From NCBI RefSeq assembly GCF_964355755.1, contig NC_092676.1:2152288-2216287 (forward strand): a stretch of 64,000 nt of DNA. The letters run 5' to 3'. The position numbers were made by a program, and so were the translations under genes. The notes under the pieces were generated by a model. The model made no database searches and was not told the origin of the DNA. It worked only from the letters and a program-made list of their open reading frames with translations. Of this stretch, positions 33,235 to 64,000 are shown piece after piece. How positions within the stretch are numbered: position 1 is the first letter of the stretch; each line of letters opens with the position of its first letter. Source of the DNA: Antedon mediterranea. Its lineage: Eukaryota; Echinodermata; Crinoidea; Comatulida; Antedonidae.

Positions 33235-36200
33235 ATGGCTGCTAAATCAACAGGTACAGTATAAATTATAATAATTTAACCATATGAGGATAACTCCAAA
33301 TAAAAGATAATCATATTTTTTAAAATGTTAACGTTAAATTCTTAAAACGTGTTCTGTCTTATTTGGTGTTATACCCTTGTATTATTTTACCTGAAACAAT
33401 TAGTACAGTAGGCCTATAGTACATCACCTGGATTGTAGAGGATGCTCTAATTCACATAACCCTTTTGCTCCTGTAAAATTCTATATACTGTATTTACAAA
33501 TAGGCCTATACTGTAAACTGTATTTTTTAAATCATCACTTATTACTTAAAATTTTTTCTTAATACAAGTTTTCTTTCCTTTCATTTTCTTAGAAATATCT
33601 GAAAAATCTTTTAGACAGGCTTTAGTAAGTTTTTCAACTTGGTATGATGAACGGTCACTTCTAAAGCAACTGAAAGTTTTGTATGAAGGTTACATTTCAG
33701 TAGCTGCATTAGATAAAGCTTCTACAACAATGGACTTGCTGAATAACTTATGTGATTCTAGTGACCTGAGTTCAAAGGATCTCACCCTTCTCTATGATAC
33801 AATAAAGGCCACTAAACAGTTCGGTATTGTAGACAAACTTCGAATTTACATTCCATCCTTTCCTGAAGTTAAAGAAATCATTATTACAAAATTCAGCCAT
33901 CATCAACAAAAGATTCTGAATTTAGGCAATGAACTGATACTGGAGGATGTGAGAAAAATTGATAATGTGCTTAATTTTCCTCCAATGAACTATCGGGATG
34001 GATGGAGTCTTCTTCTGGATTTACACCACAAACAAATCATTTGTGAAGAAAAAGAAAAAATGGATGAATTTATTACGACCTTAAAGGATCTTGGACTACC
34101 ACGAGCTGTAGCAACTCTTAGTAAAGGTATGTCATGATTTTCATGGAATATTTCAAAACATGGTTATTATTTTAAACAATGTATAAAAAACCTGATACAA
34201 TCAACTCCCCCAATACCGGACACCCTTTGGCTGGCCTAATATGTCTGATTTTCCAGAAAGTCTGGTATTGAGAATGCGTTTTTAATGGTAAAAATGAATT
34301 TGGGACCTTTTAAACCTCAAGAAAAGTCTGGTTTTGTGAGAGTCTGGTTGAGAGTTGATTGTAATGCCATTTCATTATAGCCAATTGTAAATAATTATTA
34401 TTATTAAGTCAAGGAACACATCAATAAATTTGAAGGCAAAAATCCATTCTCATATATTACTAATCAAATCATCAAACTGTATTACAGATGTTCAGATATC
34501 GGTAACTCTGCAAAAGACCAGTGGATCTACGAAGAGAAAGTGGGTCGCAAAAAAAACAAATCTGCTCCCTTTTAAATCTCTAAAAAAGAAAAAAAAGGCA
34601 TGTGATGTAGACATTAGTGAAAACAGCCCATTTAATCTTGATGAAAAACTGCAATCATTACAAAGAACTGTTGATGAAATTCAGCACACTTTGCAAACTG
34701 TCTCGGAAGTTAGTCCACTATTACTAAGCGCTATTAATGGAAAACTTCAATCTTTACCACTTAGTAGAGGAAATAGGTCACCTGTATTAGCAGTTATTGA
34801 TAGTAACCTGCAATCATTGCAAAGGACTATTAATGGAAATCTTCAGTCATCACAGGGTACTCCCATTGATGTTAGATCATCTGAACTAAGAAGCATTGAT
34901 AACAACTTGAAATTTTTACGAAATTTTCTTGAAGAAAAACAACAAACTTTGTCAATCGTTACACCAAACGTGTCAGAATTTATTTGTCAATTTGACAAAC
35001 ATAAAGATGCTGTACCATTAGATGAGGGGGAAAAGATGATTTTGAAACTGGAAAACCTAATTGATTTTTTCAAACAACGTGGGTTAAAATTAACCAAAGC
35101 AGAACACGGTTCTATAATATTCAACTTATCTGTGCTGGATACCATTGCTCTGATACATCTAAGAGAAATGTATCAAAGTGGAGAGCTTCTTTTAAAGCTA
35201 TCAGAAATATTAGTGGCAGAGGAACATCAGCCCACATTTCAAATGGAATGGATAACTTATATTAATGAAACCAAATACAAAGAAGCACTTTGTATGCTTG
35301 AAGAAGGTAAGAAATAATTTGTTGAAATTACATTTTATACACCTGATCAGAAATAGGCCTCTATATACTGTAGCTACTGTTGTCTACTGTATACATGTAA
35401 TCTATTCGATCTATTTTATTCTGCAGAAAGATAGATATAATTTCACATGAAATTTTAAATGAAATGGAAATAATAAACAAGTTGTTTTTAATCGTTAGGG
35501 AATGGATTGAGCTGTTAAATTGTTTTGAGCTATTAAACTTTAATTATTATTTCCAAAAGTGCAAAGAAACACCATGTTATCATGTTATTTATCTTGAATT
35601 TCAGATGACAAGTTATATTCCATACATGATATGATGGAAATGAGCTCAGATGAGATAGCATCTTTGCATCCTTCACAGTGCAAGATTCACAGTAAACCTT
35701 TGGATTATTACTGCAAGGATTGTGAACACCCAATCTGTGCAAGTTGTAGGCCTTCAATGTTGGGTCACAGAAATTGTCCATGCAAACAAAAGCCCATAAA
35801 AATTTCAGAAGAATTTAAATCATTTAAGAAAACGTCAAAAGAAATCGAAAAGGATGCAAATACTTATAAAACAGAATTAGATAACAGGTTACCAGCAATT
35901 TATGACATTGATACAGAACTGGATAAAAATAAATCAAATTGTTTGCAAGATATTGAAGATTACGTACAAGAAACCATCAAGACAATCAAAAAGAATGGAG
36001 AGATAATGAAGAAACAAGCAAAAACAATTTATGAAATGAAAAAGACAGAGATCGATGAACAAATGAATGAATTAACAACAAAAATATCTGATGTGGAAAA
36101 AAAACTTAATTTTCTTCATCAAATATTGAAAGGCAATGCAGTATCAGCAATTGAATCTGGTAAAATGATTGTCAAAGCACTGAGAGACAGAATTAATGAG

Positions 36201-36296
36201 GTACCAAAAACACACCCAATTGATGATGGACAAATTCACTTTTGTCAAATCAAGCAGGAATTTGTTGAACTGCAAGAGATTGCCACAGAAAATTAA
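33235..36296 (+). CDS. DED / death-fold / coiled-coil / TRADD-N-like / TRIM-tail protein (copy B1), ending at an in-frame stop
   Basis: Exons 33235-33253, 33593-34126, 34488-35306 and 35605-36296 join to 2064 nt (687 aa plus stop). Residues about 13-92 resemble a death effector domain (LLKQLKVLYEGYISVAALDK, MDLLNNLCDSSDLSSKDLTL); the RxDL motif is not conserved. About 100-182 is a second death-fold-like helical module (GWSLLLDLHHKQIICEE). About 190-350 is basic, then coiled-coil rich (repeats of LQSLQRT). About 365-457 resembles the N-terminal domain of TRADD (KAEHGSIIFNLSVLD, LREMYQSGELLLKLSEILVA). Exon 4 is homologous to the neighbouring TRIM genes from just before B-box2 through the coiled coil; RING and B-box1 are absent. 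The stop at 36294-36296 precedes an open filamin/NHL continuation in the same frame. Role is inferred: a death-domain adaptor. DED is fairly sure; TRADD-N needs profile confirmation. Confidence 0.75.
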
Positions 36297-37337: not shown

Positions 37338-38538
37338 ATCACAGGAAATGTGTTTCCCATAAAAATTAACTATATTATGCTGAAGAAGTTTCCGGCTAAC
37401 AGATAAAAATTATGTAATATCTAGTGTTGAGATGGAAAAATGAACTTTCATTCTAATATTAAAAGAGCACTTTAACCATTTAATTTTTCTATTTGTTTGT
37501 ATTGTATTATTTTTTTTATTACTGTTATATTGTTATGGTGCTCGATATGTTTCAGGTAATATATTACAGAGAGACACCGGACATCCGAGGATCTGATATA
37601 TCTACACAACAGACACGTGCGATGAATAAAGTTAAATAAAGTTACTGATGTATTGTCGTATATAATTTGTTAATCTACTAACCATTAGACAACCAAAACA
37701 TATATGTTCTGTACATGTGTGTGTAATTTTAAGCATCAAGGAAAACAAATGTCATGTTCACCTTGTTGTGGTCATGACAATAAAGATTATTTTATCTTAT
37801 CTTAAAATGAATCTTTAAAATGAATGTTAATCAAGTATCAAAAATTAATGTTAATGTCCATTCTACCATGTAAAACATAAAACCTACTTCTCTTGGTATG
37901 GAAAGATACAATTTGATTTATTTAAAATGGTCAACATAATTAAAGCAATGTTCAAATGTGTAAGTTTAATGAATTTTTTAAAAAAGTATTAAAGAATTTT
38001 AACTGCATATACATACCATAAAAAAACACTGAAACAATTATGCAAAATTTGGCCTAAAATATTATCTAAAAGAAACGATTGTAAGTCATCGAATATTCTT
38101 TTAAAGAAATGCAAAATAAAAACAAAGGTATTTTGTTGATCAAAAAAAGGAAAATTTCACCAGCAGCTATGTGATTTAGAAAGCTTTTTTTCTACTATTT
38201 CTTTTAAATAAACAAGTTTTACAAAGATTTACAGTACTGGTATTTATTTTCTATGATTTACTAAAAATAGTATTTTTTTTTTTTCGGAATACCAAGATGA
38301 CATAATATATCCATAGCAATAAAAAATAAGAAGCTTAATCTAAGAACTCATAGCACAAAAAACAAACAAATTTAAGTTTTACAGAATAACAGACAAAAAT
38401 ATATATATATATATATATAAAGTCAATGCAACAAGGCATTCTACTGTATGTGCATTATTGACACATTAAGAATGTGGCGATTAATGGCCATGATCAAAGA
38501 ATTACTTGCGTTCACACGATTTCTAAAACTAAAAACAG
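37338..38538. other. Spacer between copy B1 and the broken TRIM
   Basis: No gene. The tail-like phrase acaataaagattattttatc at about 37778-37800 resembles a non-LTR retrotransposon end. A TA microsatellite lies at about 38399-38418. The rest is AT-rich. Confidence 0.5.
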
Positions 38539-38605
38539 ATGAAGTCATCAAAAGATGGAACCTCATTCAAAACAAAAAACATGCTAGCACTACACTTTCT
38601 AGGCT

Positions 38606-40870
38606 GCACTGATCAACTTAAGGATCCAAGAACTTTAACTTGTCTCCACACCTTCTGTTTGACATGTCTAGAAACATGGGTGACAACTAAAGAGACACTA
38701 ACTTGCCCTACATGCTGCAAAACATATCCAATTCCAGAGGGCGGTCTTCACAAGCTTGCACCGAATACATTTCTAAACAACATTTTAGAAACTGTTCAAC
38801 ACTTTTTTGAGAAAGAAGCAAAGAATTGTGTTTGTGGGATGGTTGAAAAAGTGGAAAGTTACTGTCAGGATTGTAAGGAGTACATATGTTCTATTTGTTG
38901 CACCAGTCATAAAGGAATCCCAGCCTTGAGAAGTCACAAGCTATATTCCATGAATGAGATGAAAGAAATGAGCTCAATACAGATTGCATCATTACATCCC
39001 CACAGTATGAGGCCCACAGTGAAGCTTTTAAGTTTTACTGCAAGGATTGTGAACACCTAATCTGTGTGAGTTGTACAATCCTGGGTCACAGAGGTTGTGA
39101 AGGGAGACAAAAGCCAATAGCAATTTCAGAAGCATTTGAAAAATTTAAGGAAACTTCAGCAGAATTACAAAAGGATGCATATACTTATAGAAAAAAATTA
39201 GAAAACATCTTAAAAGCAGGTATATCTACTCATGTAGAACTGGACAAAAATATATCAAATTGTTTGCAAGACATTGAAGATTATGTACAAGAATCCATTA
39301 AGACAATCAATGGGGAGATAATGAAGAGGCAAGTAAAAACAATTTATGAAATGAAAAAGACAGAGATTGATGAACAAAAGAATGAATTAAGAAAAACTAT
39401 TTCTGATGTGGACACAAAACTTGATTATTTTCATAAATTATTGAAAGGAAATGAAGTATCAGTAATTGCATCTGGTAAAATGGTAGTTAAAGGACTGACA
39501 GACAGAATAAATGATTTACCAAAAACAGAATTGATGATGGACAAATTTACTTTTGTCGAATAAAACAGCAATTTGTTCAATTACAACAGTTACACACCGA
39601 AAATGCAACAGCTGAATATGTAACATTACAAGCAAATGAATCTGTAACATTACAAGCAAATGAATCTGCAATAGAATATGAAACCATTGTAATAAAAGTA
39701 AGAAAACTTAATGAATGTGAAGTAGATGCAAGTCAACTGAATGCAACATGGATAACACAGCATGGACTGGAAGAAGTAAAGTTTGAAGAAGAAAATGGAG
39801 AATATGTCTTGACAAAAAAAATTACAAGCATAGGAGTTTGTAGATTAGATGTGACAGTTGATGGTAAATACATCAAAAATTCACCAATGAAAATCACAGT
39901 AGAAAAAGAACTAATCAATTCTATCAACCTAGGCTTGGTTGGTCAAGATGTACTCAGGTATAAAGATGATTGCTTGCTGGTTTCATGTTGCACAAATGTA
40001 ATACTTAAGTGTAAGACATCAGGAGAATACATTGGTGAAATTGAACTACCAAAAGATACACAAGTTTACAGAATGTTCAAAATGAAGAATGGTGACATAG
40101 CATTCAGTGACAATGTCAGGAAGTGCATTACAATATGCACAATGGATGGTGAGGTGGTTAGAACATTTGGTCAAGGAGTATTGAAATTTCTAAGAGATAT
40201 CTATGTAGATGTGTTGTGTACTAACACCATTTAAGGTAAATATCTGAACAATAAAAGCACAACAAGTAAACACACGTGAGTCTAGGTTTAGTCGTTCTCC
40301 ATCTTCCCCGCATCCGGGGCTTTATTCATTCTCCACAACACTATATATATAGAGGGCGTTAGACCATTACAATCGGTTACAATTACAGTACAAGTAATGT
40401 ACAGTATATGACAAGATGAAGTGTCAGATGTTGTCTATGTAGCAGATTCTGATAATGGTACAGTGGTATTGGACCTTGGTAGTGGACAGGTCATCAATAG
40501 ATGGACACAACCTAATACTTATGTCCGAGATGTTACTATGACGAACCAAAGACAGATTCTCATATTGGACTCGCGTCATGGATTACTACTAGCTGGTAAT
40601 AATGGAAGACTAATCAAAGTTCTTGTTGAAATATCGGATAATGTTGTGTTTGGAAAACTGACAAACCCCAGTGCAGTAGTAGTTGATAAACATGATAACA
40701 TCATTGTATCAAGTCGGTACAATGTGCAACTTTTTGACAAAGATGGTAAATTCATAAAAGTGATTGGTAAAATAAAGGGTTCATTAGAAATATGCATCAT
40801 TTCACATCAGCCGCGAAAAATTGCTGTAACAAATCAGTATGACAAAACATTGCAAATACTTAATTACTAA
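38606..40870 (+). pseudogene. Broken TRIM copy (A2), with frameshifts and a solo LTR
   Basis: Homology to the intact TRIM genes begins at tgcactgatcaactt, so the start codon region and the first RING cysteine pair are lost. A 1-nt loss near 39000 (catccccacag against catcccccacgg in copy A3) shifts frame inside B-box2. A 4-nt loss near 39533 shifts it again after the coiled coil. A 202-bp insertion at 40212-40413 interrupts the NHL domain. From about 39712 to the stop the sequence is almost identical to copy A1. Two upstream segments stay open for 174 and 166 codons, so truncated products are conceivable, but a working ligase is not. Confidence 0.9.
40212..40413. mobile_element. Solo LTR inserted in the broken TRIM copy
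   Basis: A 202-bp insert starting TGTTGTGTAC and ending GTATATGACA is flanked by a perfect 5-bp duplication, agatg (40207-40211 and 40414-40418). The uninterrupted paralogue at 29484 onward gives the empty site. TG...CA ends plus a 5-bp target duplication are diagnostic of an LTR; aataaaa is present inside. No internal retroelement sequence remains. Confidence 0.9.
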
Positions 40871-40892
40871 AACATATCTATGTTTTCCTTAA

Positions 40893-41486: not shown

Positions 41487-41876
41487 TTAAAGTGTCTTTT
41501 AGAAATAAACTTTGTTCTTCTGAAGAAGTCGGAGTGCTAGCAGATTAAATACAGTATGTTATTATCCAGTTTTGAGATTCAAAGTTTAAATGGTTGAATT
41601 GTTATATTACCTACACAGATGAACTTTTATACTAATATATTAAAAACGCACTTAAAATCAATCTTAAAATTATTGCTCCAGAAACAACAATTTGAACGGA
41701 CAGATGGGCTGCCTACAATCACATCCAAAATCAAGGATTTGACCATGGTACTGTAAATCACTAAAGACATTTTGTAGATCCAGCGACAAACGTCTGTACA
41801 AATTGAGTTGAGTCGAAGTGGTCAAGAGTCAAGGCTGAAATGAAGGTGCAACAAGGGCCAACTAATCCAGAATTGT

Positions 41877-42215
41877 CAGAGATGTTACTATGACGAACCA
41901 AAGACAGATACTGATATTAAACAAACATTGTGGATTAAAACTCACTGATAAAATGGAAAACTAATCAAAGTTCTTGTTGGAATATCAGATACTATTGAAG
42001 GTGCAAAGCTATACTCTCTCAGGCAGTAGTTGTTGATCAACATGATGATAACATTATTGTATCAATTCATTACAGTGTACAACTTTTAATTTCATTAAAG
42101 TTATTTGTGAGACAACATTGACAGATGGATTATGCATCATTTCACATCAGTCATGGAAAACTTCAGTAATAATTCAGCTTGACAAAACATTAGAAATACT
42201 TATTTACTATAAACA
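41877..42215 (+). pseudogene. Degenerate NHL-domain fragment
   Basis: Follows the duplicated 3' flank. Matches include gatgttactatgacgaaccaa, aatcaaagttcttgttg and gcatcatttcacatcag, with frameshifts and gaps throughout. Only propeller sequence is present. Confidence 0.8.
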
Positions 42216-43306
42216 CAGGAAATATATTTCACTATACAGTACCTAGTAAACTTTACAAAAATATCTTTTAAAACATAAATTATATTTAAAAAGCACTCTT
42301 CTAATTCTATAGAATAAATGATATAATAAATCTATTCTTGCTGAAGTGAATTCTACCATGTAAAATATAAATCCTACTTATCTTGGAAAAGATACAATTT
42401 CTTTTATTTAAAATATAAATGCAGCAAGCAATGTTATACTTTTGAAGTTTAGCCATTTTGTTTATATTAAAGAATTTCAACTGCATAAACACACCAATAA
42501 AATTCGTATACAAAATGTTGCCTAAATATGATCATCTTGGTAAAATAAATTATTGTCATCAAATTTACTAGAATCTCTGCTGTATTTTGTAAATTTTCAG
42601 ACTATTAGTACTACTAAGGAAGTAATTTTTTGTCCTCTGAACCTGCCTAAACATTTTGAATAAAACAGTTGTACAAGGATTTAAAGTACTGGAATTTTTA
42701 TGATTCACTAACAATTGTAATAAACTCAGTAGCATCTAAATATCAGACTAAAAACAAATATAAGTTATCTATTTGGTGTTTGTATTGAATGGACGATGAA
42801 GATATTAACACATCAATACTAAAGTCTAGTTTACATAGGCTATTTAACCTTTGCACACAAACGAAAAAATTATCAGAATATTCATGATTCTATTCACTAT
42901 AAGCACCTACTGCAGAAGGAAAGAAGCTCGTCGGTTACGAATTTCAATTTAAAATTCTATAAAACTACAGGTATTTTGCACTATTTTTTGTAAATACATT
43001 TATCTATTATTTGTTAGTATTTCTTTTTATATATAATTGCACTTGTAGATACACATGTCCTAATTGTACCTCTTGTACGAGGGTGCGAGTCTAACTGTTT
43101 GTTCTACCTGTATGTAGTTTCATTCCACATTTTAACACGGAAGTAATTATCTTAAACAAGTCACTTTTTACAACAATTAAATAAAGCTCTTTAGTACTAT
43201 ACAGAAAAATTTCAACTAATCAACTTCAGTGATATCAACATTATCATATCAAAAGTATATTTAATAATTACAAATTATGATTTCCAATATTATCAACTGT
43301 TCACAG
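42216..43306. other. 5' flank of copy A3
   Basis: No gene. AT-rich DNA containing the probable promoter and untranslated first exon of the TRIM starting at 43318; the exact donor was not chosen. Confidence 0.45.
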
Positions 43307-43317
43307 ATTATTCTAAG

Positions 43318-45462
43318 ATGGCTGCCAGTAAGCCAAATAAGATTCTAGAAGACATCAACGAACATCTTGAGTGTAGCATCTGCACTGATCAACTTAAGGA
43401 TCCAAGAACTTTAACTTGTCTCCACACCTTCTGTTTGACATGTCTAGAAAAATGGGTGACAACTAAAGGTACACTCACTTGCCCTACATGCTGCAAAACA
43501 TATCCAATTCCAGAGGGCGGTCTTCACAAGCTTGCACCGAATACATTTCTAAACAACATTTTAGAAACTGTTCAACACTTTTTTGAGAAAGAAGCAAAGA
43601 ATTGTGTTTGTGGGATGGGTGAAAAAGTGAAAAGTTACTGTCAGGATTGTAAGGAGTACATATGTTCCATTTGTTGCGCCAGTCATAAAGGAATTCCAGC
43701 CTTGAGAAGTCACAAGCTATATTCCATGAATGAGATGAAAGAAATGAGCTCAATACAGATTGCATCATTACATCCCCCACGGTGTGAGGCCCACAGTGAA
43801 CCTTTTAAGTTTTACTGCAAGGATTGTGAACACCTAATCTGTGTGAGTTGTACAATCTTGGGTCACAGAGATTGTGAAGGGAGACAAAAGCCAATAGCAA
43901 TTTCAGAGGCATTCAAAACATTTAAGAACATTTCAGCAGAATTACAAAAGGATGCATATACTTATAGAAAAAAATTAGAAAACATCTTAAAAGCAGGTAT
44001 ATCTACTCATGTAGAACTGGACAAAAATAAATCAAATTGTTTGCAAGACATTAAAGATTATGTACAAGAATCCATTAAGACAATCAAAAAGAATGGAGAT
44101 ACAATGAAGTGGCAAGTAAAAACAATTTATGAAAGGAAAAAGACAGAGATTGATGAACAAATGAATGAATTAAGAAAAACTATTTCTGATGTGGACACAA
44201 CACTTGATTATTTTCATCAACTATTAAAAGGAAATGCAGTATCAGTAATGGAATCGGGTAAAATGGTAGTTAAAGGACTGACAGACAGAATAAATGATTT
44301 ACCGAAAACAGACAGAATTGATGACGGACAAACTGACTTTTATCAAATCAAACGGCAATTTGTTCAACTACAAAAGTTCAATCCTGAAAATGTAACAAAA
44401 GTGACAACAGCTGACCATTTAACTTTACAAGGAAATGAATCTGTGATAGAAAAAGAAACAATTGTAATAAAAGTAAGAAAACAAAGTAAATGTAAAATAG
44501 ATGCAACTCAACTGAATGCAACATGGTCTACAAAGCATGAGCAGGAAAAAGTCAAGTTTGAAGAAGAAAATGGAGAATATGTCTTGACAAGAAAATGTAC
44601 AAGCGTAGGAGTTTCAAGATTAGATGTGATAGTTGATGGCAAACACATCATAAATTCACCAAAGACAATAACAGTAAAAAAAGAACTAATAAATTCTATT
44701 AACCTTAACTTTGAAGGTAAAGATGTACTTAAGTATAAAGATGATTGTTTGCTGGTTTCATGTTGGACAAATGAAATACATAAGTATAAGTCATCAGGAA
44801 AATACATTGGAAAAATTGTACTACCAGAAGAAACAGAAGTTAACAGAATGTTCAAAATAAAGAATGGTAACATAACGTTCAGTGATGTTGGTAAGAAGTG
44901 CATTACAATATGCAATATGAAGGGTGACGTGGTTAAAACATTTGGTCACGGAATACTGTCATATCCACAAGGTATCCATGTAGATGAGGAATCAAATGTT
45001 ATCTATGTAGTAGATACATACCAAGGTTGTCTAGCTGTATTTGACATTGATAATGGTCAGGTCATCCATAGAGATTGCTTACAGCATGTTAGGTCCAGGC
45101 CCAGACCTCTCATAGATGTCACCTTTACAAATCAAAAACAGCTTCTCACAATATCAACACATCATTTTGGATTAAACCTCATTGACCTTATTGATGGAAG
45201 GCTAGTGAAAGTTCTTGTTGAACAATCAGAATTTTGGAAATTTGGAAACGTGAATGAATCACGTGCAGTAGTTGTGGATAAAGATGATAATATTATTGTA
45301 TCATGCAAATATCATGTACAAATCTTTGATAAAGATGGTAAATTCATAAAGGAGATTGGTAACATAAAGAAGAGACATGGAATATGCATAATTTCACATC
45401 AACCAAAACAAATTGCTGTGCTAAATCTGATCGATAATACATTAGAAATATTAAATTATTAA
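43318..45462 (+). CDS. TRIM E3 ubiquitin ligase, RING-Bbox-Bbox-CC-filamin-NHL (copy A3)
   Basis: An intact 714-aa paralogue of copy A1, from one coding exon. The RING cysteines and histidine are all kept (C19 to C58). B-box1 begins CVCGMGEKVKSYCQDCKEY and B-box2 contains HSEPFKFYCKDCEHLICVSC. The coiled coil, filamin (VSRLDVIVDGKHIINSPKTI) and NHL repeats (HVDEESNVIYVVDTYQG) follow. The NHL part is the most diverged of the three intact copies, with small insertions (for example around DCLQHVRSRPRP), as expected if the propeller is the recognition surface. The ATG is 11 nt after an acceptor at 43305-43306, the same 5' layout as the others. Confidence 0.93.
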   Translation: MAASKPNKILEDINEHLECSICTDQLKDPRTLTCLHTFCLTCLEKWVTTKGTLTCPTCCKTYPIPEGGLHKLAPNTFLNNILETVQHFFEKEAKNCVCGMGEKVKSYCQDCKEYICSICCASHKGIPALRSHKLYSMNEMKEMSSIQIASLHPPRCEAHSEPFKFYCKDCEHLICVSCTILGHRDCEGRQKPIAISEAFKTFKNISAELQKDAYTYRKKLENILKAGISTHVELDKNKSNCLQDIKDYVQESIKTIKKNGDTMKWQVKTIYERKKTEIDEQMNELRKTISDVDTTLDYFHQLLKGNAVSVMESGKMVVKGLTDRINDLPKTDRIDDGQTDFYQIKRQFVQLQKFNPENVTKVTTADHLTLQGNESVIEKETIVIKVRKQSKCKIDATQLNATWSTKHEQEKVKFEEENGEYVLTRKCTSVGVSRLDVIVDGKHIINSPKTITVKKELINSINLNFEGKDVLKYKDDCLLVSCWTNEIHKYKSSGKYIGKIVLPEETEVNRMFKIKNGNITFSDVGKKCITICNMKGDVVKTFGHGILSYPQGIHVDEESNVIYVVDTYQGCLAVFDIDNGQVIHRDCLQHVRSRPRPLIDVTFTNQKQLLTISTHHFGLNLIDLIDGRLVKVLVEQSEFWKFGNVNESRAVVVDKDDNIIVSCKYHVQIFDKDGKFIKEIGNIKKRHGICIISHQPKQIAVLNLIDNTLEILNY

Positions 45463-47131: not shown

Positions 47132-50100
47132 ATGGCTGAATCAGGTACGTCAATAGAACTAGAAAACCATAAAAAAAAATCCTGGAGATCATCAAATTAT
47201 TCAAGTCTTCCTTATAAAAAATGTAATCCTGCCTCAATCTGACCAATAAAATCAGTTTATTTTGCCAATATCTCACCTGTTCTCTTTGGAGTTAAAAAAG
47301 GTGTACACATAATTTCTAAAAATCTTTAAAATGTGTTGTAAAGTTCTGTTTCAATAAAATGGTATGAGTAAAGTATATTTTGATCTTATCTTCTTTTATT
47401 CCTCTTTCATAGAAACATCTGACAAATCGTTCAATCAGGCTCGCTTTTTCAACTTGGTACGATAAACGAAACCTGATCAGGAAACTGAAAGTTTTGTATC
47501 AAGGTCACATTGCAGAAACTGACTTGTATAATGCCTCTACAACAATGGACTTGCTGCAGCAGTTGATTGATTCTGGGGACCTAAGTTCAAAAGATCTCAC
47601 CATTCTCTATGATACCATAAAGATCACTAGACAGTTTGCTATTGTGGACAAACTTCAACTTCACATCCCATCTTTTCCTGATGTTAAACCCATCATTATT
47701 ACAAGATTCAGTCTTCATCAACAAATGATTCTGAATTTAGGCAATGTACTAATACAGGAGGATGTGAACAAAATTGATGGTGCGTACAATCGTCCTCCAA
47801 AGAATTATCAAGATGGATGGAGTCTTCTCATGGATTTACAACACACCAATGTAATTTGTGATAAAGAGAATCAAATGGATAAATTTATTGAGACCGTAAA
47901 GTTGCTTGAATTACATAGAGCTACTGAAACTCTTACAGGTATTTTGATGGAAAATGTTTACATTTAATAGTTATTCGGGAATAGTTTAAAATATTACTTA
48001 ATTGTAACCATGCACCTGAAATTGTAATAATTGATATTTAACCTCAAATATCTTTATTTATAATGGATTTTACTTCATGGTAAGTAAACTTAAATTTAAA
48101 GTTAAAACGGTCAAAAAAGTTTAGTGCATCAAGTTAAGGTAAAGTTTAGAATGTCTCAAATGCATAAAAATAAATAATCTTTATTCGAGGGAGGAGTTTA
48201 TTTGGGTGAGGTGTTTATTTTTTTGGGTGTAATATGGTAACATGTATACCATATTTATTTGAATAAATGGCAGCCATTTATTGTTCAGGTAGGTTTTTAG
48301 GGGGGGGGGAGTTTATTCGAGCAGTTCCATTTATTATGGGGAGGCGTTTATTTTTTTGCGTGTAAAATAGTAACATGTAATCAAATAAAAATCGAGAAGT
48401 GATAAAATACAATACAATTTGTATCAAAATGCTTGTAGATCATGTCAATCAATGAATTCAACTACAAATAGTAATGGAGCTGTAGCTTGGTGGTTAGTGT
48501 GCTTACCTTCCACTCTCAAGGTCCAGGGTTCAATCTGACCTAGTGCCAGAGGACTGACTATTTCAACTCCACTCCTTAAGCCTCAAATGAGTTTATAAGC
48601 ACGATTAAATATAAAATAATTTATCAATTGGTGAGTTTGTGCTCGCTGTTGGATGCGTATCAAAAAAAAAGAAAAAATATAAATGTGTTGTATTTGTGTA
48701 TAATTCATGTGGCGGGATGTTTATTTTAGAAAATAAATAAATGCCCCGGGGCGTTTATTTGAGAGGGGGAGGTTATTCTTCAAAATGATGTTTTATGGGG
48801 GGGGGGGGGGTGAAATTTGTGCGCGTTTATTTGAGGTAGGTGTTTATTCAAGGCGGAAAGTTTAATCGATTAACTACGTTAAAGCCTATAATACTAGTAT
48901 TTATTCTATTTTTGTGTTTATTATTACAGATGTTCAGATACCGGTCACTCTAAAACGCAAGACAGACTCTAAAGATCAACTGCCTAAAAAAAAGATCTAC
49001 AATAAAACTTTATCACAAAGTACTTCCACTGAAGATAAACCATCTATTAAAAGAAACCTAGATGAAAAACTTCAATCATTACAAAGAACTATCGATAAAA
49101 TTCAGCAATCTTTATCAAATGTCTCTGAAGTTAGTCCATCATCACTACAAGCTATTGCTGACAATCATTCACAAAAAAGCACTGAGAATTGGTTATCAAT
49201 AATAACTTCAAAAGATAATCGACTACCTTCACAATATCTTCATCTTAATAAATCTGTACACGATATTGATACAAATTTGCAATTATTACAAAGAAAAATT
49301 GATAAAAATCTGCGATCATTACAGAGTACTCGCACTGAACTAAATAAACTTAATAACAAACTGCAAACTTTACACAATATTCTTGAAGAAAATCAACAAA
49401 ATTTGTCAAGGTTTACACAAAGATCTTGTGATTTCTTTCTTCAACTTTTTCAATATGAAAACATGATGACAAAAGACGATGAAGAAATATTATTTTCAGG
49501 AATACAACTATTTATTAATTTCTGCAAAGAACATGGGTTAAGATTAACCAAAGCAGAACACAGTTGTATCATATTCAACTTCTCTGTACTGGATCCTGTT
49601 GCTTTGACGAACCTTTGGGAAATGTACAAAAGTGGAGAGCTTCTTGTAAAATTATCAGAAACATTAGTGGCAGAGGAACATCAGCACACATTTCAAATGG
49701 AATGGATGACAGAAATGGATAAAGATAAATACCAAGAAGCACTCTTGAAACAGATGGTGAGAAATATATGTTGTTAGTGTCTTAATCTATAACAAAACTT
49801 ACAGTGATAATGAACAACATTTTGCATGTAGTTATGTACAAGTGCATTTCAAAATTGCAACCAAAACATAATATCTGTAATGTTGTTTTACAATTCCATT
49901 CTAATATTTTGTAGAGTCAGGGAAGAAGGAACTTCCTGGTGGACTACAGTATTAGAGACAAATTGATAAAAATGACTTCTATTATACTAATTTGAGAATA
50001 TTATTGGAAATTAAGGTTTAATACTGTTCTACGACACTCACAAGTGTGGTAGAACAGTATTGAACTGATATGTATAAATCTCTTCATTCTCGATTATTGG

Positions 50101-52281
50101 AAATGTATTCATAGTTTTTTTTATATCTTCTGAATTAGACATATCAGCGGAATCATCCTTTGAATTAAACACAGGTGAGTTAATGTATTTATGTTACGAA
50201 GTGTTTGTTGTCCAACCAAACATGTTACCATTAAATTTAAAACCATTACTTAACCTTTACCTTACATGGAGTCACCACAGCATAGTATGAACACTGCATC
50301 ATTGATTCCTTATGAACACACAAAATTAAACCACTCTGGCCTACATTTGCTGTACAATCCTGAACTTGTAAACCAAAAAATTTAGAAGAAATATGAATTA
50401 TTTAGACTCTACGAAATATCTTCATCTTAAAAAATGAGATGAAAATAAATGAGTAACAATTCGTTTTTAATTATCATTAGAAGACAAATAGAAAAAATAT
50501 AAATAAGTTTCTTATTTTATTCTTATTTGAATAAGGTAGAAAAATAGTATACATATTTTGTCATAGTAATAACTTCTTCAATTCCAGCTTCACCACCACA
50601 GTGCAAGATTCACAGTAAACCTTTGGATTATTACTGCAAGGATTGTCAACACCCAATCTGTGCAAGTTGTAGGCCTTCAATTTTGGGTCACAGAAATTGT
50701 GCAGGCAAACAAAAGCCAATAACAATTTCAGAGGCATTTAAAGCATTTCAGAAACTTTTCGCAGAATTAGAAAAGGATGCCGATACCTATACAAGAGAAA
50801 TAAAAAACATCTTAAAAGGAGTTCAAGAGATTGATACAGAACTGGAAAAAAATAAATCAAATTCTTTAAAAGATATTGAAGACAATGTAAAAGAAACCAT
50901 CAAGACAATCAAAAAGAATGGAGAGGCAATGGAGAAGCAAGTGAAAACAATTTATGAAAAGAAAAAGACAGAGATTGATGAACAAACAAAAGAATTAAGT
51001 AAGCCAATATCTGATGTGGACACAAAACTTTGTTTACTTAAAGAAGTATTGAAAGGCAATGAAGTATCAGCAATGGAATCAAGTAAAATGGTGGTTAAAG
51101 AACTAAGAGACAGAATTAATGAGGTACCAAAAATAAAACCAATTGATGATGGACAAATTCACTTTCATCAAATCAAACAGAAATTTGTTGAATTACAAAA
51201 GATTGCCATAGAAAATGTGAAAAACATTGAAAAGGAAATTAAAGTGACAATGGCTGACTATCTAACATTACAAGCAAATGAATCTGTGATAGAAAATGAA
51301 ACCATCATAGTAAAAGTAACAAAACTGCATAACTGTAAAGTAGATGCAAATCAACTGAATGCAACATGGTCTACCCAGCAAGAACGGGAAGAAGTGAAGT
51401 TTGAAGAAAAAAATGGAGAATATGTCTTGACAAGAAAATGTACAAGCCCAGGAGATTGTAGATTAGATGTGACAGTTGATGGCAAACACATCATAAATTC
51501 ACCAATGACAATCACAGTAGAAAAGGGATTAATCAATTCTATCAACCTAGACTTTGTTGGTGAAGATGTACTTAAGTATAAAGATGATTGCTTACTGGTT
51601 TCATGTTGGACAAATGAAATATTTAAGTGTAAGCCATCAGGAGAACACATTGGTAAAATTACATTACCAGAAGGTACAACGGTTAACAGAATGTTCAAAA
51701 TGAAGAATGGTGACATCGCATTCAGTGATTTTGGTAAGGAATGCATTACAATATGCACAATGGATGGTGAGGTGATTAAAACATTTGGTAAAGGAGTATT
51801 GTCACTTCCATATGGTATCCATGTAGATGAGGAATCAAATGTTGTCTATGTAGCTTGTATTAATCATACATACAAATTCAACATTGATAGTGGACAGGTC
51901 ATCCATAGATGGCCACAACACAATAATGCAAGTGTAATTGATGTTACCTTTACAAACCAAAGACAGATTCTCATATTAGACTGGAATAATGGACTACAAC
52001 TGACTGATAATGATGGAAGACCAATCAAAGTTCTTGTTGAGGCATCAGATGTAGATGTAATGGGAAAGTTGACAGAGCCACGTGCAGTAGTAGTTGATAA
52101 AGATGATAACATCATTGTATCAAGTTATCACAATGTACAACTCTTTGATAAAGATGGTAAATTCATAAAAGTGATTGGTGAAACAAAATGGGCATACGGA
52201 CTATGCATCATTTCACATCAGCCACAGACAATTGCTGTAATAAATCGGTGTGACCAATCATTGAAGATATTTAAATATTAA
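47132..52281 (+). CDS. DED / TRADD-N-like / TRIM-tail gene (copy B2), with phase-breaking changes
   Basis: Pieces by homology to B1: 47132-47144 (ATGGCTGAATCAG), 47413-47938, 48930-49756, a 36-nt exon 50139-50174 and the last exon 50588-52281. Exon 2 lacks 5 nt against its paralogues just before the FSTWYDKRN motif, so splicing from the 13-nt first exon is out of frame; the correct frame is nevertheless open back to the acceptor, and an ATG at 47494 lies inside it. Exon 3 (coiled coil, then TRADD-N-like HSCIIFNFSVLD, LWEMYKSGELLVKLSETLVA) ends in phase 0 at 49756, but the next two exons need phase 1. The last exon is intact: B-box2 (HSKPLDYYCKDCQHPIC), coiled coil, filamin, NHL, to a normal stop. 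Either another first exon and donor are used, or this is a decaying gene. Confidence 0.6.
48170..48870. repeat. GTTTATT(C/T)GAGG-rich repeat region with inserted SINE
   Basis: Repeated phrases tttattcgagg, gtttatttgagaggggg and tgtttattcaaggcgg, with G-rich runs, mark a diverged repetitive element in intron 2 of copy B2. The SINE-like unit at 48478-48665 lies within it. Element limits are uncertain. Confidence 0.55.
48478..48665 (+). mobile_element. tRNA-derived SINE-like sequence
   Basis: An A-box-like segment (gcttggtggttagtgtgctt) and a B box (GGTTCAATCTG at about 48528) are spaced as in a tRNA, followed by an unrelated tail ending in an A-rich run (about 48661). No acceptor stem is visible, so it is not called as a tRNA gene. 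Confidence 0.6.
50020..50061. other. 19-bp hairpin in an intron of copy B2
   Basis: aatactgttctacgacact, a 4-nt loop (caca), then agtgtggtagaacagtatt: 18 of 19 positions pair. It lies between exon 3 and the 36-nt exon. It could be a tiny foldback insertion or an RNA structure; no function is assigned. Confidence 0.8.
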
Positions 52282-54091: not shown

Positions 54092-54179
54092 TTAATGAAA
54101 TTACAAAATAACATATTCATAGTCTGATTTAATTAATCTTCATTTTTCATGTTTTTTGGGGACAATACATCTTTAAGGG

Positions 54180-55378
54180 AGGAGGTATTTTGGCAAATTA
54201 GGTCATGTTAAATATTGGTCCAGCATGTAATGATCACCTAAATTACAATATTTTTTTGAGATATTTATATGAAATTTGTTACTGTCCTTTTAATTGATTG
54301 AATTTGAATAAAACAGATCAGGTAAATTGAGGGCTATCGACTGTCTATGAAATGAACCATTGCTAAAATGTCCAACAGATGTTGTTGGACATAAAACGAA
54401 AATACAATAATAGATGCAAATATATGACATTCAATACTTTAGACAAGTGCAATATATGACTGGCACAGCCTTGGTGATAGTCTATAGAAAACTGGCTACC
54501 GTGAAGTTAGCTACTTGTAGATGCAACGAAAGAAAGAGAATCAAGGTAAGAAGAAATATAGATATTCTTTTGACATTTCTCTTCTTATTGTGAAATGTGT
54601 GATAATGTATGTAGTTTGCAAAGTTTTTTTATTATTTATTGTAAAATAGTGCCATGAGCATATTTTTTTTTCTGATGGACACTTGCGCACAAAAAGCCTA
54701 CGTTATTATTTTTACTATATCTGAATCGAAAACGGTGGGTTTGTTTGACATCTAACCCACACATCTATTTGAAAAAACTATGATTGAACACTCTTACCAC
54801 AAGTGCCTCATCTAGCCTCGTTTACTGTAGAATGATCGATTAAAAGAAATATAAATAAGAAATATATTGTCTACAGTATATGTATACATGTTTGAATAAT
54901 ACATTACACACTTAAAGGAAAACTAATTTCCTTTAACTGTGACTGTTTTAACCTCACATAAGTTATTCACTTTTACCATAAAGGATAAAAAAATTATTCA
55001 CCTGATAAACTGTAAATTAAATAAAAACTAAAAAGTGTTGAATTTGTATTAAAAAAATTAATAATAAAGTAGTCAAATGGAAGAGAAATCATTATTTTTG
55101 TTTAAAACAAAAGTGAATAATAACTTTATTACAACTGCAAAATGTCCTACTAATAGTTTTACTGTATTTGAGGACAATACATATTTTAACCTGTGACATT
55201 TTAATATAATTTATGCCCACAGAATTGCAAGAAAAACTATCCCATGATTACATTGTAAGCCAGAGAAACACAACATTACATTGTAAGTTATCAAATCAGT
55301 CAAACTATTAATATAAATCAGATTCTACTTAAATAAATTTCATAAATGCTTGATACAATATTATTGATTTTTCACAAG
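54180..55378. promoter_or_regulatory. 5' flank and untranslated first exon of copy A4
   Basis: A donor at 54546 (aatcaag|gtaagaa) closely matches the donor before copy A1 (aacaag|gtaagaa at 27200), and an acceptor lies at 55377-55378, 11 nt before the ATG. The transcript start is probably near 54450-54540. A degenerate AGATGTATTGTCC-type relic (ending gaggacaatacatatttt) lies at about 54915-55185 in the intron. Confidence 0.5.
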
Positions 55379-55389
55379 GTATTTCAAAG

Positions 55390-57507
55390 ATGGCTGCTGC
55401 TGCTGGTAATACAAATAAGTTTTTAGAAGACATCAATGAGCATCTAGAGTGTAGCATCTGCACTGATCAACTAAAGGATCCAAGAACTTTAAGCTGTCTA
55501 CACACCTTCTGTTTGACATGTCTAGAAAAATGGGTGACGAAAAAAGGGACACTAACTTGTCCTACATGCTGCAAAACATATCCAATTCCAGAGGGCAGGC
55601 TTCAAAGCCTTACACCGAATACATTTCTAAACAACATTTTAGAAACTGTTCAACATTTTTCAGAAAAGAAAAATTGTGTTTGTGGGATGGTTGGAGAAGT
55701 GGAAAGTTACTGTCAGGATTGTAAAGAGTACATATGTTCCATTTGTTGCGCCAGTCATAAAGGAATTCCAGCCTTGAGAAGTCACAAGCTATATTCCATG
55801 AATAAGATGAAAGAAATGAGCTCAATACCGATTGCATCATTGCATCCTTCACAGTGTGAAGCTCATAGTAAACCTTTAGAATTTTACTGCAAAGATTGTG
55901 AACACCTAATCTGTGTGAATTGTACAATCTTGGGCCACAGAGATTGTGAAGGGAGACAAAAGCCAATAGGAACTTCAGAGTTATTTAAAGCATTTAAGGA
56001 AACTTTGACAGAATTGGAAAAGGATGCGAATACTTTTACAACAGAATTAGAAAACAGCTTAAAAGAAATTCTAGAGATCAATACAGAACTGGAAAAAAAT
56101 AAATCAAAATCTTTGCAAGATATTGAAGATTATGTACAAGAAACTACTAAGACAATCAAAAAGAATGGAGAGACAATGGAGAAGCAAGTAAAAACGATTT
56201 ATGAAAAGAAAAAGACAGATATTGATGAACAAATGAATGAATTAAATACAACAATATCTGATGTGAACACAAAACTGAATTTACTTCATAAATTATTGAA
56301 AGGCAATGAAGTATCAGCAATTGAATCTGGTAAAATGATAGTCAAAGCACTGACAGACAGAATTAAAAATGCACCAACAACACATCCAATTGATAACGGA
56401 CAAATTTACTTTTGTCAAATCAAAGAGCAATTTATTCAACTAAAACTTATGGACACTAAAAAAACAACTGACTATACTGACTATCTAACATTACAAGCAA
56501 ATGCATCTGTGATTGAAAATGAAATCATGGAAGTAAAAGTAAGAAAACAAAAGGAATGTGAAGTAGATGCAACTCAACTGAATGCAACATGGACGACACA
56601 GCAAGGAGAGGAAGAACTGAAGTTTGAGGAAGAAAATGGAGAATATGTCTTGACAAGAAAATGTACAAGTCCAGGAGTTTGTAGATTAGATGTGACAGTT
56701 GATGGCAAACACATCATAAATTCACCAATGATAATCACAGTAGTAAAAGAATTAATCAATTCTATCAAATTAGACTATGGTGGTCAAGATGTACTTAAGT
56801 GTGACAATGATTGCTTGCTGGTTTCATGTCAGACAAAAGAAATACTGAAGTATAAGCCATCCGGAGAACACATTGGTGAAATTACATTACCACAGCGCAC
56901 AAGAGTCAACAGAATGGTCAAAATGAAGAATGGAGAGATAATATTCAGTGATAGAGGTAAAAGGTGCATTACAATATGCAATATGAATGGTAAGGTGATT
57001 AGAACATTCAGTAAAAGAAGAGGATTGTCATCTCCAGAAGGTATCCATGTAGATGAAGAATCAAATGATGTCTGTGTAGCTGATGGTTACAATGGTACAG
57101 TGGGCTATGATATATCTAGTGGTCTGGTCATCCATAAATGGTCACAACCTGATATATGTGTCATGGATGTTACATTTACAAACCAAAGACAGATTCTCAT
57201 ATTAACCTCGCATCATGGACTACAACTAACTGATAATGATGGAAGACCAATCAAAGTTCTTGTTGAAGCATCAGATAATGAAGCTGTGGGAAAGTTGACA
57301 AATCCATGTGCAGTAGTAGTTGATAAAGATGATAACATCATTGTATCAAGTTATCAAAATGTACAACTCTTTGACAAAGATGGTAAATTCATAAAAGTGA
57401 TTGGTGAAACAAAATGGGCATTAGGATTAAGCATCATTTCTTATCAGCCACGAACAATTACTGTAATAGATCAGTATAACAAAGCATTGAAGATATACAA
57501 TTACTAA
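55390..57507 (+). CDS. TRIM E3 ubiquitin ligase, RING-Bbox-Bbox-CC-filamin-NHL (copy A4)
   Basis: An intact 705-aa paralogue, one coding exon. The N-terminus is two residues longer (MAAAAGNTNKF), so the RING runs C21-C60 with all eight ligands. B-box1 is CVCGMVGEVESYCQDCKEY; B-box2 includes HSKPLEFYCKDCEHLICVNC. Coiled coil, filamin (GVCRLDVTVDGKHIINSP) and NHL repeats (GIHVDEESNDVCVADGYNG, AVVVDKDDNIIVSS) follow. It is spliced in the 5' UTR like the other A copies. As an NHL-TRIM it should be a cytoplasmic ubiquitin ligase; targets are unknown. Confidence 0.93.
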   Translation: MAAAAGNTNKFLEDINEHLECSICTDQLKDPRTLSCLHTFCLTCLEKWVTKKGTLTCPTCCKTYPIPEGRLQSLTPNTFLNNILETVQHFSEKKNCVCGMVGEVESYCQDCKEYICSICCASHKGIPALRSHKLYSMNKMKEMSSIPIASLHPSQCEAHSKPLEFYCKDCEHLICVNCTILGHRDCEGRQKPIGTSELFKAFKETLTELEKDANTFTTELENSLKEILEINTELEKNKSKSLQDIEDYVQETTKTIKKNGETMEKQVKTIYEKKKTDIDEQMNELNTTISDVNTKLNLLHKLLKGNEVSAIESGKMIVKALTDRIKNAPTTHPIDNGQIYFCQIKEQFIQLKLMDTKKTTDYTDYLTLQANASVIENEIMEVKVRKQKECEVDATQLNATWTTQQGEEELKFEEENGEYVLTRKCTSPGVCRLDVTVDGKHIINSPMIITVVKELINSIKLDYGGQDVLKCDNDCLLVSCQTKEILKYKPSGEHIGEITLPQRTRVNRMVKMKNGEIIFSDRGKRCITICNMNGKVIRTFSKRRGLSSPEGIHVDEESNDVCVADGYNGTVGYDISSGLVIHKWSQPDICVMDVTFTNQRQILILTSHHGLQLTDNDGRPIKVLVEASDNEAVGKLTNPCAVVVDKDDNIIVSSYQNVQLFDKDGKFIKVIGETKWALGLSIISYQPRTITVIDQYNKALKIYNY

Positions 57508-59454: not shown

Positions 59455-59572
59455 TTTATGTGACAAAAAAAATGTGATGTGGCCATATATGTATATGTAT
59501 GCATATCACTATCATATTTGGGCACATCACACTTTGTTGTCAAACTAGTTTGATAGTGTAGACAGAGCTTTA
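59455..59572. mobile_element. Small MITE, CTGTCTACACTATCAAACT family (copy D)
   Basis: Right end tgatagtgtagacagagctt and internal atttgggcacatcacac match copies A-C. The left inverted end is degraded. Confidence 0.75.
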
Positions 59573-60893: not shown

Positions 60894-63800
60894 ATGGCTA
60901 CGTCAGGTACAGTAGAACATTTTAAATACAATTTTACAAACTCTGTATTTAAATAACTATTCCCATTATTATGAATGACAATCAAGAAAAAACATTGTGT
61001 AATTTTGTAGTAATTTTAAGTAGTAATATTTGAATCTGGATTTTACAAATGTTAAACTTTAAATGGAAGTAACCTCATTTGTGCTGAGTTTTAGGCCCTG
61101 TTTCTGCTGCCAATCCCAAATATACCGTATAAATATACCGTATATGAAATTCGTGCACCGTTTCCGCTGCACATACTTTGTAGGTGGGCTGTAAAAAAGT
61201 TGGCTTTTATTACCCAAAATGCATTTCGTGAGACGGAAGTATGGATTGACCTAGAGTCTCGTGTAGTGAGGTTTATACCCGACAAAAACAAAACAATGAT
61301 GGTTTCTCAAAACGTCGTTGTAGCATTGCTTTCTATTTTAAATGTAGAAATGTAGAATGGACATTGACTAGATTTATGCAAAGAAGACGACGGCGTTTGC
61401 CGATGACTTTGGCTTAAGTCTACCACAAATTCTGCTTTTATTTTGTGTGAGATACTTTTGTCAATCTCGGTATCTCTTTTGTTGCCATGCAGTCTTCCCC
61501 CAACCTTCGCTTCTCCCCACAATTGAATTGTAAAAATAGTTATTTCTTCAGTCCACAGTGACATTTTGATCTGTTGCTTGCTTATACACGTGTGTGTCAA
61601 TGCAGCAGAAAAACCAAACAAACAAGTCACGCTCTGTTATTTTTGACCTCGGGTCACATATACGGTATATTTTGAGTGCATCAGAAACGGGGTACGAAAT
61701 ATACGGTATATTTTGGAATATACCGTATAATATCCACAAACGATAGGGATATTTATGCGGTATATATACCGCATATATATACGGTATATTTTTTATGAGA
61801 CCCGTTTCTGCTGCCAAAAAATATACCGTATATAAAATATACCGTATATAAAATATACCGTATATATACGATTACGGTATATTTAGATTACTAAATTAGA
61901 AGGAATTAATTTGTTTAAATATTTACTTAATAAAGCAATAATTAATTATTCAAGAGAAGTTTAAACGTTAATAAATTTAATAACTCTACAGTATGTGTTG
62001 TAAGTCCTGTTCATGCATCCCACTCCTGCCTCAAGAATGGGATGGAAAAATTATATTTTACATTTTTTTCTTCTGTTTTCTTAGAAACATTAAATAAATC
62101 ATTTAAACTGACTTTAGACAGTTTTTCAACTTGGTACGATAAACGAAACCTTATCAAGAAACTGAAAGTTTTGTATCAAGGTTACATTGCAGAAGCCGAC
62201 TTACATAATATCTCTAAAACAATGGACTTGCTGAATCAATTAACGGATTCTGGAGATCTGAGTTTAACAGATCACACCATTCTCTATGATACAATCAAGG
62301 CCACCAAACAGTTTGGTCTTGTAGGCCAGCTTAAAAAGCACATTCCATCTTTTCCTGATGTTAGAAAAAGAGTTATTACAAAATTCAGCCATCATCAACA
62401 AAAGATTTTGAATTTAGGCGATGTACTGAGACAGGAGGATGTGAACAAAATTGATCGCATGTACAATGATCCACCAAACAATTATCAAGATAGGTGGAGT
62501 CTTCTTCTGGATCTACAACACAAACTAATCATTTGTGAAGATAACAAAATGGATGAATTTATTGAGACCTTAAAGGGTCTTGGACTACATAGAGCTGTAA
62601 AAACTCTAACTAAAGGTAATTCATGAAACCTTCTTACATTATAAAAAAATTCAATTCCATTCTCATGCTAGATAGTTGATCTAAAATCCTATAGTACTCC
62701 AATTTTAAATGTTATCAATATAATTTAAAACAAAAATTTGCTGTTAACAAAGAAGATGAAATTTATAGAACTGGCTTAATAAGTTTTCTTAAACTGCATG
62801 AATGATGATGCGCAGGCCCGTAGCCAGGGGGGGTTTTTATGGTTCGGGCGAACCCCCCCTTTACAGCGAACCCCCCTTAACCAACTGCGAACCCCCATCC
62901 CCGACATGCTCAATACCTCACCCTCATCTCCAAAAATCCTCCAAATACGTGCCCCACATTACAAAAAGTTGTTTGTAAATTGAAAAATTCGTAAACTTGT
63001 TTGTGAACCTTCTTCTCTGTATGAGCGTCAACTAGTGATACGTGTCTGTAAATTTCTAAAAGCTGCAAATGAATGAATGAATGAAACGAGCTGGCCCACG
63101 AACGATTCGTACAAAGGACACCGCCAGACAACTGCGTACCTATAATTGTTTAGATCACTGGCAATCAGGCAGCATGCATAAAGTATATAGCCTTCCGACG
63201 TACATCAGTATTTATGTGTGACTATGAAGTATAATGTATCATAGAGGATTATAGTGAATATTAATATTTTACACTATAATATCTATGGTATCAAGTACTG
63301 TAGTTCACATTATGGCATCCGATTATTTTTTTCTAGACCACCAGCCGATACGTACTAAAATGTATCAATATCACCTATTTACATATTTATATTCCTCAAC
63401 AAATTACTGTAAATAAATATTATAGATAGAGCTAGCAAATAGCATTTGCCTTCACCCAGTGTGCTTTTTTCGGGGCTGCTCCTAGATATACGTTCGCATT
63501 GAACTTGAACGCAAAACAAAATACGGAGTAAATGATCAAACAATCGGCGGTTCCGCACAGAGCACGCGCATCTAACATACGGCAACAAATAGTTATCGTC
63601 ATTTAAATTATCGACGTGTTTGAGGAGAAGGAAAAAAGTACGATCTTTTTGCTTATTGGTTATATAGCATGCTGCACGAGAGTGTCTTTTCCGGCCATCT
63701 AGGGGTGTCATTTAACAAAATTCGCTTCGCATCAGGCCCCACCCCCAAATATTTAGTGTCCGAACCCCCCTTGACAGATCCTGGCTACGGCCCTGATGCA

Positions 63801-64000
63801 CACAGTATTAACAAAATATTGATCAAATGCTAACATGGCAAATGCAAGTAAAGTAAGATTTGTAATACACCATGCAATATTTACAAAGGTAAAGTAGGTA
63901 TTTTAATATAATAATATAATAATAAAAATGTATTTTTTATTTATTACAGATGTTCAAATACCACTTACTCTAAAACGGAAGACAGACTCTGAAGATCAAC
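60894..64000 (+). CDS. DED / death-fold gene (copy B3), partial at right edge
   Basis: Exons 60894-60906 (ATGGCTACGTCAG), 62085-62615 and 63950 onward (cut by the window). The junctions keep frame: exon 1 ends in phase 1 and exon 2 continues as ETLNKSFKLTLDSFSTWYDK. The DED-like domain (LIKKLKVLYQGYIAEADLHN, MDLLNQLTDSGDLSLTDHTI) and second helical module (KILNLGDVLRQEDVNKIDRM, WSLLLDLQHKLIICED) are intact, unlike copy B2. Exon 3 begins DVQIPLTLKRKTDSEDQ, matching B2. The coiled-coil, TRADD-N-like and TRIM-tail parts are expected to the right but not visible. Intron 1 holds an ATATACCGTATA-rich palindromic block and intron 2 a 983-bp transposon. Confidence 0.85.
61094..61880. repeat. Palindromic block rich in ATATACCGTATA
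   Basis: About a dozen occurrences of atataccgtat or its complement lie here. Pairs of flanking motifs (ccctgtttctgctgcc at 61097, gcatcagaaacgggg at about 61678-61692, cccgtttctgctgcc at about 61801) suggest at least two nested foldback elements whose ends are CCCGTTTCTGCTGCC-like. The minus-strand open frames across it are not genes. Confidence 0.75.
62813..63795. mobile_element. 983-bp transposon with CAGG(C/G)CCGTAGCCAGG ends
   Basis: The left end CAGGCCCGTAGCCAGG is matched by the complement of CCTGGCTACGGCCCTG at the right. Subterminal gcgaaccccccct-type and cgaaccccccttgaca repeats are present. Flanks atgcg and atgca are only a possible imperfect target duplication. The ends resemble hAT-type termini; no transposase frame is seen. 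It lies in intron 2 of copy B3. Confidence 0.85.

Follow-up and report, generated by a model that had tools for sequence, protein, structure and literature searches.

A death-fold and TRADD-N-like exon cassette among tandem TRIM-NHL genes of the crinoid Antedon mediterranea, and its probable joining to downstream TRIM exons

A cluster of single-exon RING-TRIM-filamin-NHL genes in the crinoid Antedon mediterranea harbours three units, B1, B2 and B3, whose first three exons form a cassette: in unbroken copies all exons are in phase 1, and the cassette ends in an open phase-1 donor instead of a stop. We put at roughly 0.6 the probability that this cassette is completed by whichever exon lies downstream, here a TRIM-NHL exon; the B units would then be a death-adaptor cassette joined to a downstream TRIM exon, with B3 intact, B1 truncated and B2 broken. 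Such joining in the mRNA is suggested by the intron phases, the open frames and the point at which TRIM homology starts. The underlying logic is already known, as constant DED-TRADD-N parts followed by variable tails, TRIM included, are described in PMC8195603; the B units are a further case, with a filamin/NHL tail.

The window (the whole 64,000-nucleotide stretch analysed) is part of contig C7 of a genome of 354 Mb and 18 contigs. The TRIM cluster extends from 27.8 kb to past the window end, and the B units are set within it. Open RING-TRIM copies lie at 27.8, 43.3 and 55.4 kb, and a broken copy at 38.6-40.9 kb (38533-40870), between B1 and the 43-kb gene, is split over several frames. Remnant NHL-end fragments of TRIM copies were also seen at 30508-31021 and 41875-42230, and the TRIM at C7:2229154 is likewise broken. 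The features of the B units and of the two complete genes between them are collected in Table 1.

Table 1. Positions of the B units and neighbouring RING-TRIM genes in the window (domain names as predicted).
Feature	Position	Strand	Basis
B1 exon 1: 19 nt with the start codon and a phase 1 donor	33235..33253	+	
B1 exon 2: DED-like and second death-fold module (predicted tandem death fold)	33593..34126	+	
B1 exon 3: TRADD-N-like domain at the C-terminal end (about 34955-35305), preceded by a coiled-coil-like stretch	34488..35306	+	
B1 exon 4 (coding part): B-box2, then coiled coil; ends at TAA 36294-36296	35605..36296	+	
B1 tail, filamin/NHL part: frame unchanged, after the stop, open for 346 codons	36297..37337	+	
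RING-TRIM-filamin-NHL gene, complete, single exon, between B1 and B2	43312..45462	+	ORF, Pfam
B2 exon 1	47132..47144	+	
B2 exon 2: predicted tandem death fold, out of frame with B2 exon 1	47413..47938	+	
B2 exon 3: TRADD-N-like domain and coiled coil; its donor does not fit the phase of the tail	48930..49756	+	
B2 TRIM tail, no RING found: B-box2, coiled coil, filamin and NHL in an open frame	50588..52281	+	
RING-TRIM-filamin-NHL gene, complete, single exon, between B2 and B3	55354..57507	+	ORF, Pfam
B3 exon 1	60894..60906	+	
B3 exon 2: predicted tandem death fold	62085..62615	+	
B3 exon 3: only its start inside the window, continues to L001 position 780	63950..64000	+	
RING-TRIM-filamin-NHL exon after B3 exon 3, outside the window	L001 1981-4073		

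Each B unit begins with a tiny exon (13 or 19 nt, starting ATGGC), followed by an exon of about 178 codons and an exon of about 275 codons. The exon borders given for B1 in the initial annotation proved exact to the base (junctions 33253/33593, 34126/34488 and 35306/35605); the introns between them measure 339, 361 and 298 nt, and all are GT-AG and phase 1, as are all introns of B3. When 700 nt upstream of exon 2 were scanned, the tiny exon was found in 6 of 11 copies; that of B3 lies farther upstream and had been overlooked, together with the continuation of B3 beyond the window. Once the numbering is extended via locus L001, exons 3 and 4 of B3 occupy 63950-64780 and 65981-68073, and the four exons encode 1155 residues, RING included, up to a natural stop, the sole unbroken chain among the three units. 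The joined frame of B1 gives 687 residues and ends at its TAA, between the coiled coil and the filamin and NHL stretches; the claim that B1 encodes these two domains in one frame does not hold. Nor does B2 encode the domain series ascribed to it: exon 1 to exon 2 and exon 3 to tail are both out of phase, exon 2 being open in a frame not reached from exon 1 and exon 3 ending in phase 0 where the tail requires phase 1, and the joined frame holds 46 stops. A possible mini-exon of B2 was noticed by eye at about 50139-50174, between exon 3 and the tail. The phase-1 GT donor of exon 3 is kept in eight of the ten copies viewed, the exceptions being B2 and L010, which argues that exon 3 is built to continue.

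Exon 2 had been read as a DED-like domain followed by a second helical death-fold module, and both parts of this reading are supported. Pfam DED (PF01335) matches B1, B2 and B3 with E-values of 7.3e-5, 1.8e-6 and 5.8e-4 (23.4, 28.5 and 20.5 bits, all under the gathering score of 35.9), and it matches 16/16 rows of an exon 2 alignment, A2, that includes the three units (best E 1.4e-10; other families at most two rows). These matches point to a divergent DED-like domain in the first half of the exon. In a PDB profile search with the 16 rows of A2, five cFLIP chains came first, at weak E-values of 0.016-0.024, followed by two unrelated chains and then by FADD chains. A structure model of exon 2, built from three window sequences, reached pLDDT 75-91 in blocks from residue 101 and was poor in the first module, mostly under 50. 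Foldseek gave no match to this model at E 0.001, and its 22 best rows were all chains of DED proteins. Residues 100-178 of the model form a six-helix death fold that aligns with the DED of PEA-15 at a VIA-align Z of 9.6 (rmsd 2.5 over 77 residues), a score to be read with caution since values below about 13 in helical bundles can reflect a common arrangement; the 25 best of 32 rows were death-superfamily chains, and the next row had Z 3.1. Because the Pfam matches, the cFLIP-led profile, the Foldseek rows and the VIA-align score agree, exon 2 most likely encodes a tandem death fold. The tandem DEDs of caspase-8, cFLIP and vFLIP are the nearest known likeness, their chains being the best Foldseek rows and cFLIP topping the profile search; unlike caspase-8, cFLIP and vFLIP, the cassette has no visible caspase domain, and the sequence match is weak (E 0.016).

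The C-terminal domain of exon 3, labelled TRADD-N-like in the initial annotation, is likely, though not proven, to deserve that name at the family level only. Pfam TRADD-like_N (PF20694) matches 11/25 rows of an exon 3 alignment, A1, at E<=1 (next family 2/25). B1 alone gave no match to PF20694, B2 gave E 0.21 with 11.9 bits against a gathering score of 23.7, and a relative, L019, exceeded that score with 24.5 bits. Short ORFs similar to the last ~85 residues of the exon occur at other places in the genome, and two of them (C10:20329041 and C3:27138094) exceed the Pfam cut-off. Aligned by hhalign with L026, a stronger Pfam hit, A1 gave 80.9% (P 1.3e-5); against the NCOA6-like L027 it gave no match, though the Pfam hit of L027 lies inside the stretch compared. 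An HMM of ten close copies, run on 640 six-frame ORFs of the window and 41 loci, found L026 at E 0.013 and the next unrelated ORF at 0.28 among the matches listed, a modest result. The conserved TRADD-N motif, a tiny residue followed by Ser or Cys between strands 2 and 3 (PMC8195603), is present as GS in B1, SC in B2 and SS in B3; across A1, by-eye counting found Ser or Cys in 25/25 rows, and the residue before it is Gly or Ser in 19 of them and Lys or Asn in the other 6. Family-level matches, motif and L026 alignment thus favour the label, but B1 itself does not score and a two-sequence model of the TRADD-N-like part was poor (all helical, mean pLDDT 61.8) and found no PDB match below E 1.5. 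A PDB profile search with A1 returned no TRADD chain and a single hit, at E 0.35. As a side observation, Pfam also matches TRADD-like_N at the L027 locus (C11:12807500-12813500), in a Q/M/P-rich ORF of great length that looks NCOA6-like by eye.

The tails resemble TRIM-NHL proteins, which comprise RING, B-boxes, coiled coil, filamin and NHL. The tail of B2 is 66-70% identical to four complete RING-TRIM-NHL copies of the cluster and that of B1 68% identical to the 55-kb copy. Unlike in these copies, no RING was found in the tails of B1 and B2, and B-box1 is missing there as well; the exon after B3 has a RING (PF00097, 37.9 bits against a cut-off of 21). The B-box2, coiled-coil, filamin and NHL stretches assigned earlier are there, filamin and NHL partly below cut-off, but those of B1 are cut by the stop before filamin and NHL and the B2 chain is out of frame. 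An intact RING-less TRIM-NHL protein with a DED, as first proposed, is therefore encoded by neither, and the intact chain, B3, retains its RING.

In B1, DNA homology to six RING-TRIM copies begins at 35608, 3 nt into the exon after an in-phase acceptor; under a simple null devised after seeing the data, a random break would fall so near an in-phase acceptor with a chance of about 0.014-0.022. The B2 tail also starts adjoining an acceptor (50588), farther into the TRIM than that of B1, and the acceptors of B1 and B2 thus stand at differing TRIM positions. Tails in which no RING is found and which start next to acceptors are what one would expect of a downstream exon, less so of the beginning of a gene, and B3 is open across all its joins. 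These two observations stand against an alternative that we hold to be unlikely, though it is the stronger competitor, namely that two gene families are interleaved here and no fusion exists: the DED-TRADD-N genes would end in unrecognised short exons, the TRIMs would have their own promoters and 5'UTR introns, and tandem duplication would have copied both. It draws strength from the RING-TRIMs themselves, which carry an acceptor about 10 nt before the ATG; the window holds no DED exon ahead of the 27.8-kb copy, which has this acceptor too and an in-frame stop between acceptor and ATG. The acceptor of B3's last exon may therefore serve a 5'UTR intron, and the in-phase fit of B3, a one-in-three event, may be luck. 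The full TRIMs at 43 and 55 kb moreover stand as single ORFs, and B2 cannot be joined in frame. A tree of the seven TRIM tails had no starred branch and did not place the tails of B1 and B2. On balance, the proposed DED/TRADD-TRIM fusion is plausible for B1 and B3, where the phases fit, but B1 is stopped and B2 is broken.

The stop in B1 may be of recent origin, vary between individuals or reflect an assembly error, because dN/dS is alike on its two sides: against the RING-TRIMs at 28, 43 and 55 kb it is 0.57-0.59 before the TAA and 0.59-0.76 after it. All valid pairs computed gave dN/dS below 1 (maximum 0.87; pairs with R66k, which was in a wrong frame, were left out). A location of the TAA inside an intron is unlikely, as the preceding stretch aligns as coding with four other tails. 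That the B units are relics of an ancestral fusion, the present copies being decaying pseudogenes, would explain the TAA of B1, the frame breaks of B2 and the broken TRIMs of the neighbourhood, yet we regard it as quite improbable given that B3 has no break at all and that B1 past its TAA shows no further stop and an unaltered dN/dS.

Genome-wide, at least 150 relatives of the DED exon were counted (the searches scored 150 of 382, 150 of 340 for the DED exon, and 103 of 162 candidates). Of the 150 DED exons, 15 have a TRADD-N-like exon on their own strand no more than 4 kb downstream, and none was found upstream or on the other strand; a NACHT match lies within 8 kb downstream on the same strand of 31/150 (2 upstream, none on the other strand). 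These counts used 150/150 DED, 103/103 NACHT and 32/34 TRADD-N-like rows, two second pieces being omitted. TRIM matches within 8 kb were found downstream of three of the 150 DED exons, all in this cluster, upstream of three and on the other strand of none, from 42 of 94 TRIM rows; the other 52, checked by eye, included none near a DED exon outside the cluster. Only 3 of the 15 DED-TRADD-N pairs thus have a TRIM downstream, all in one cluster, and TRIM matches flank the cluster's DED exons on both sides, so position alone is no proof of fusion, and the two-sided arrangement speaks for interleaved families.

Other ORFs downstream of DED-TRADD-N pairs are candidate tails by their position and speak for the cassette reading. 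Pfam found a PARP catalytic domain at L004 (E 2.3e-18); at L010 it found CCCH fingers together with weak matches of PARP12 type, and L044 has a PARP/CCCH set that by eye resembles these two. An LRR ORF follows the pairs of L007 (Pfam) and L043 (by eye), and at L008 (C9:20301000-20307000) a Death ORF (E 1.8e-7), with a phase-1 acceptor seen by eye, follows the pair; a near-identical pair at C8:16572934 has no Death ORF in its locus, L042. No recognised tail was found at L003, L005, L006 and L042 within the stretches examined, and L009 has no TRADD-N-like exon. Loci L042-L044 were judged by eye only, and the Pfam scan covered neither L029 nor L030. A MuDR hit in L004 was set aside as a repeat artefact (0 stretches). 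Several further features were noted. At C3:32.71-32.745 Mb (L004, L010, L029, L044), three DED-TRADD-N pairs lie amid PARP12/ZAP-like ORFs, those beyond the Pfam matches being recognised by eye; a short tandem repeat with two or more open frames separates DED and TRADD-N-like exons at L010 (about 1047-1669) and L029 (about 3-955). DED exons also precede NACHT ORFs, for example at C3:2344196 (L034), C5:20018934 (L031) and C11:16945967 (L039), a sizeable DED-type NLR repertoire.

The nearest published work is a study by Kaur and colleagues. Constant DED-TRADD-N parts with variable C-termini were already described there in 2021 (eLife 2021, 10:e70394; PMC8195603), the tails named being TRIM, B-box, PARP, STAND NTPase, LRR and Death-like. 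The initial annotation took DED/TRADD adaptors and TRIMs to be separate as a rule, a premise overtaken by this study, which reports DED-TRADD-N fused to TRIM and to B-box. The study also describes lineage-specific expansion in marine invertebrates including echinoderms, with 18-23 copies in one clade, and proposes retroposition into TRADD-N neighbourhoods. The B units resemble this class in a DED-like domain followed by a TRADD-N-like one in a constant part, in a candidate variable C-terminal part and in the motif, and in B1 and B3 the order and phase of these parts on the DNA fit the class. Unlike the proteins described there, the B units have two predicted death folds and a coiled-coil-like stretch in the constant part, and three copies lie amid tandem single-exon TRIM-NHL genes. 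Filamin and NHL are absent from the main text of PMC8195603, and an identical architecture may stand in its source data; among the papers searched, none gave a closer description of TRIM, death effector domain and NHL combined in echinoderms.

If the cassette is indeed joined to the TRIM exons, two kinds of protein would result. In B3 the cassette would join a whole RING-TRIM-filamin-NHL exon, giving the intact chain; in B1 it would join a TRIM that has lost its 5' end, beginning shortly before B-box2, and whose frame now closes past the coiled coil; B2 would be a broken copy. The NHL/filamin part would bind ligand and the TRIM coiled coils would gather molecules, whereupon the tandem death folds could recruit death-fold partners of the FADD/caspase-8 kind, and the RING of B3 would add ubiquitin. 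Pyrin (TRIM20) is a TRIM with one PYD, B-box, coiled coil and a B30.2 end. Like B1, it has a death fold in place of the RING, then B-box and coiled coil; unlike pyrin, B1 carries a pair of DED-like folds together with a TRADD-N-like domain, and its frame closes past the coiled coil. By analogy with pyrin and tandem-DED proteins, the TRIM parts would most likely cluster the protein and the death folds would signal, and B1 may act like pyrin or may regulate B3-type proteins through its coiled coil. TRADD-N could switch between its flanking domains, as proposed in PMC8195603.

How the joins arose can be suggested only tentatively: it is possible that an open phase-1 cassette amid tandem single-exon TRIMs captures its resident neighbours by splicing, at three points, giving forms with and without RING. 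The B3 join would fall before the RING, and those of B1 and B2 would fall between the B-boxes, each at a different place. Unlike in the retroposition proposal (PMC8195603), the captured parts would here be resident tandem neighbours.

As proteins of this kind have already been described, the surprise is limited. Should the joins hold, one polypeptide would combine a TRIM sensor with a death adaptor, which directly predicts what an invertebrate TRIM-NHL would signal through. The cluster would also show at close range how a cassette with an open end may acquire tails, which is how the highly diverse TRADD-N immune proteins of marine invertebrates are thought to be built.
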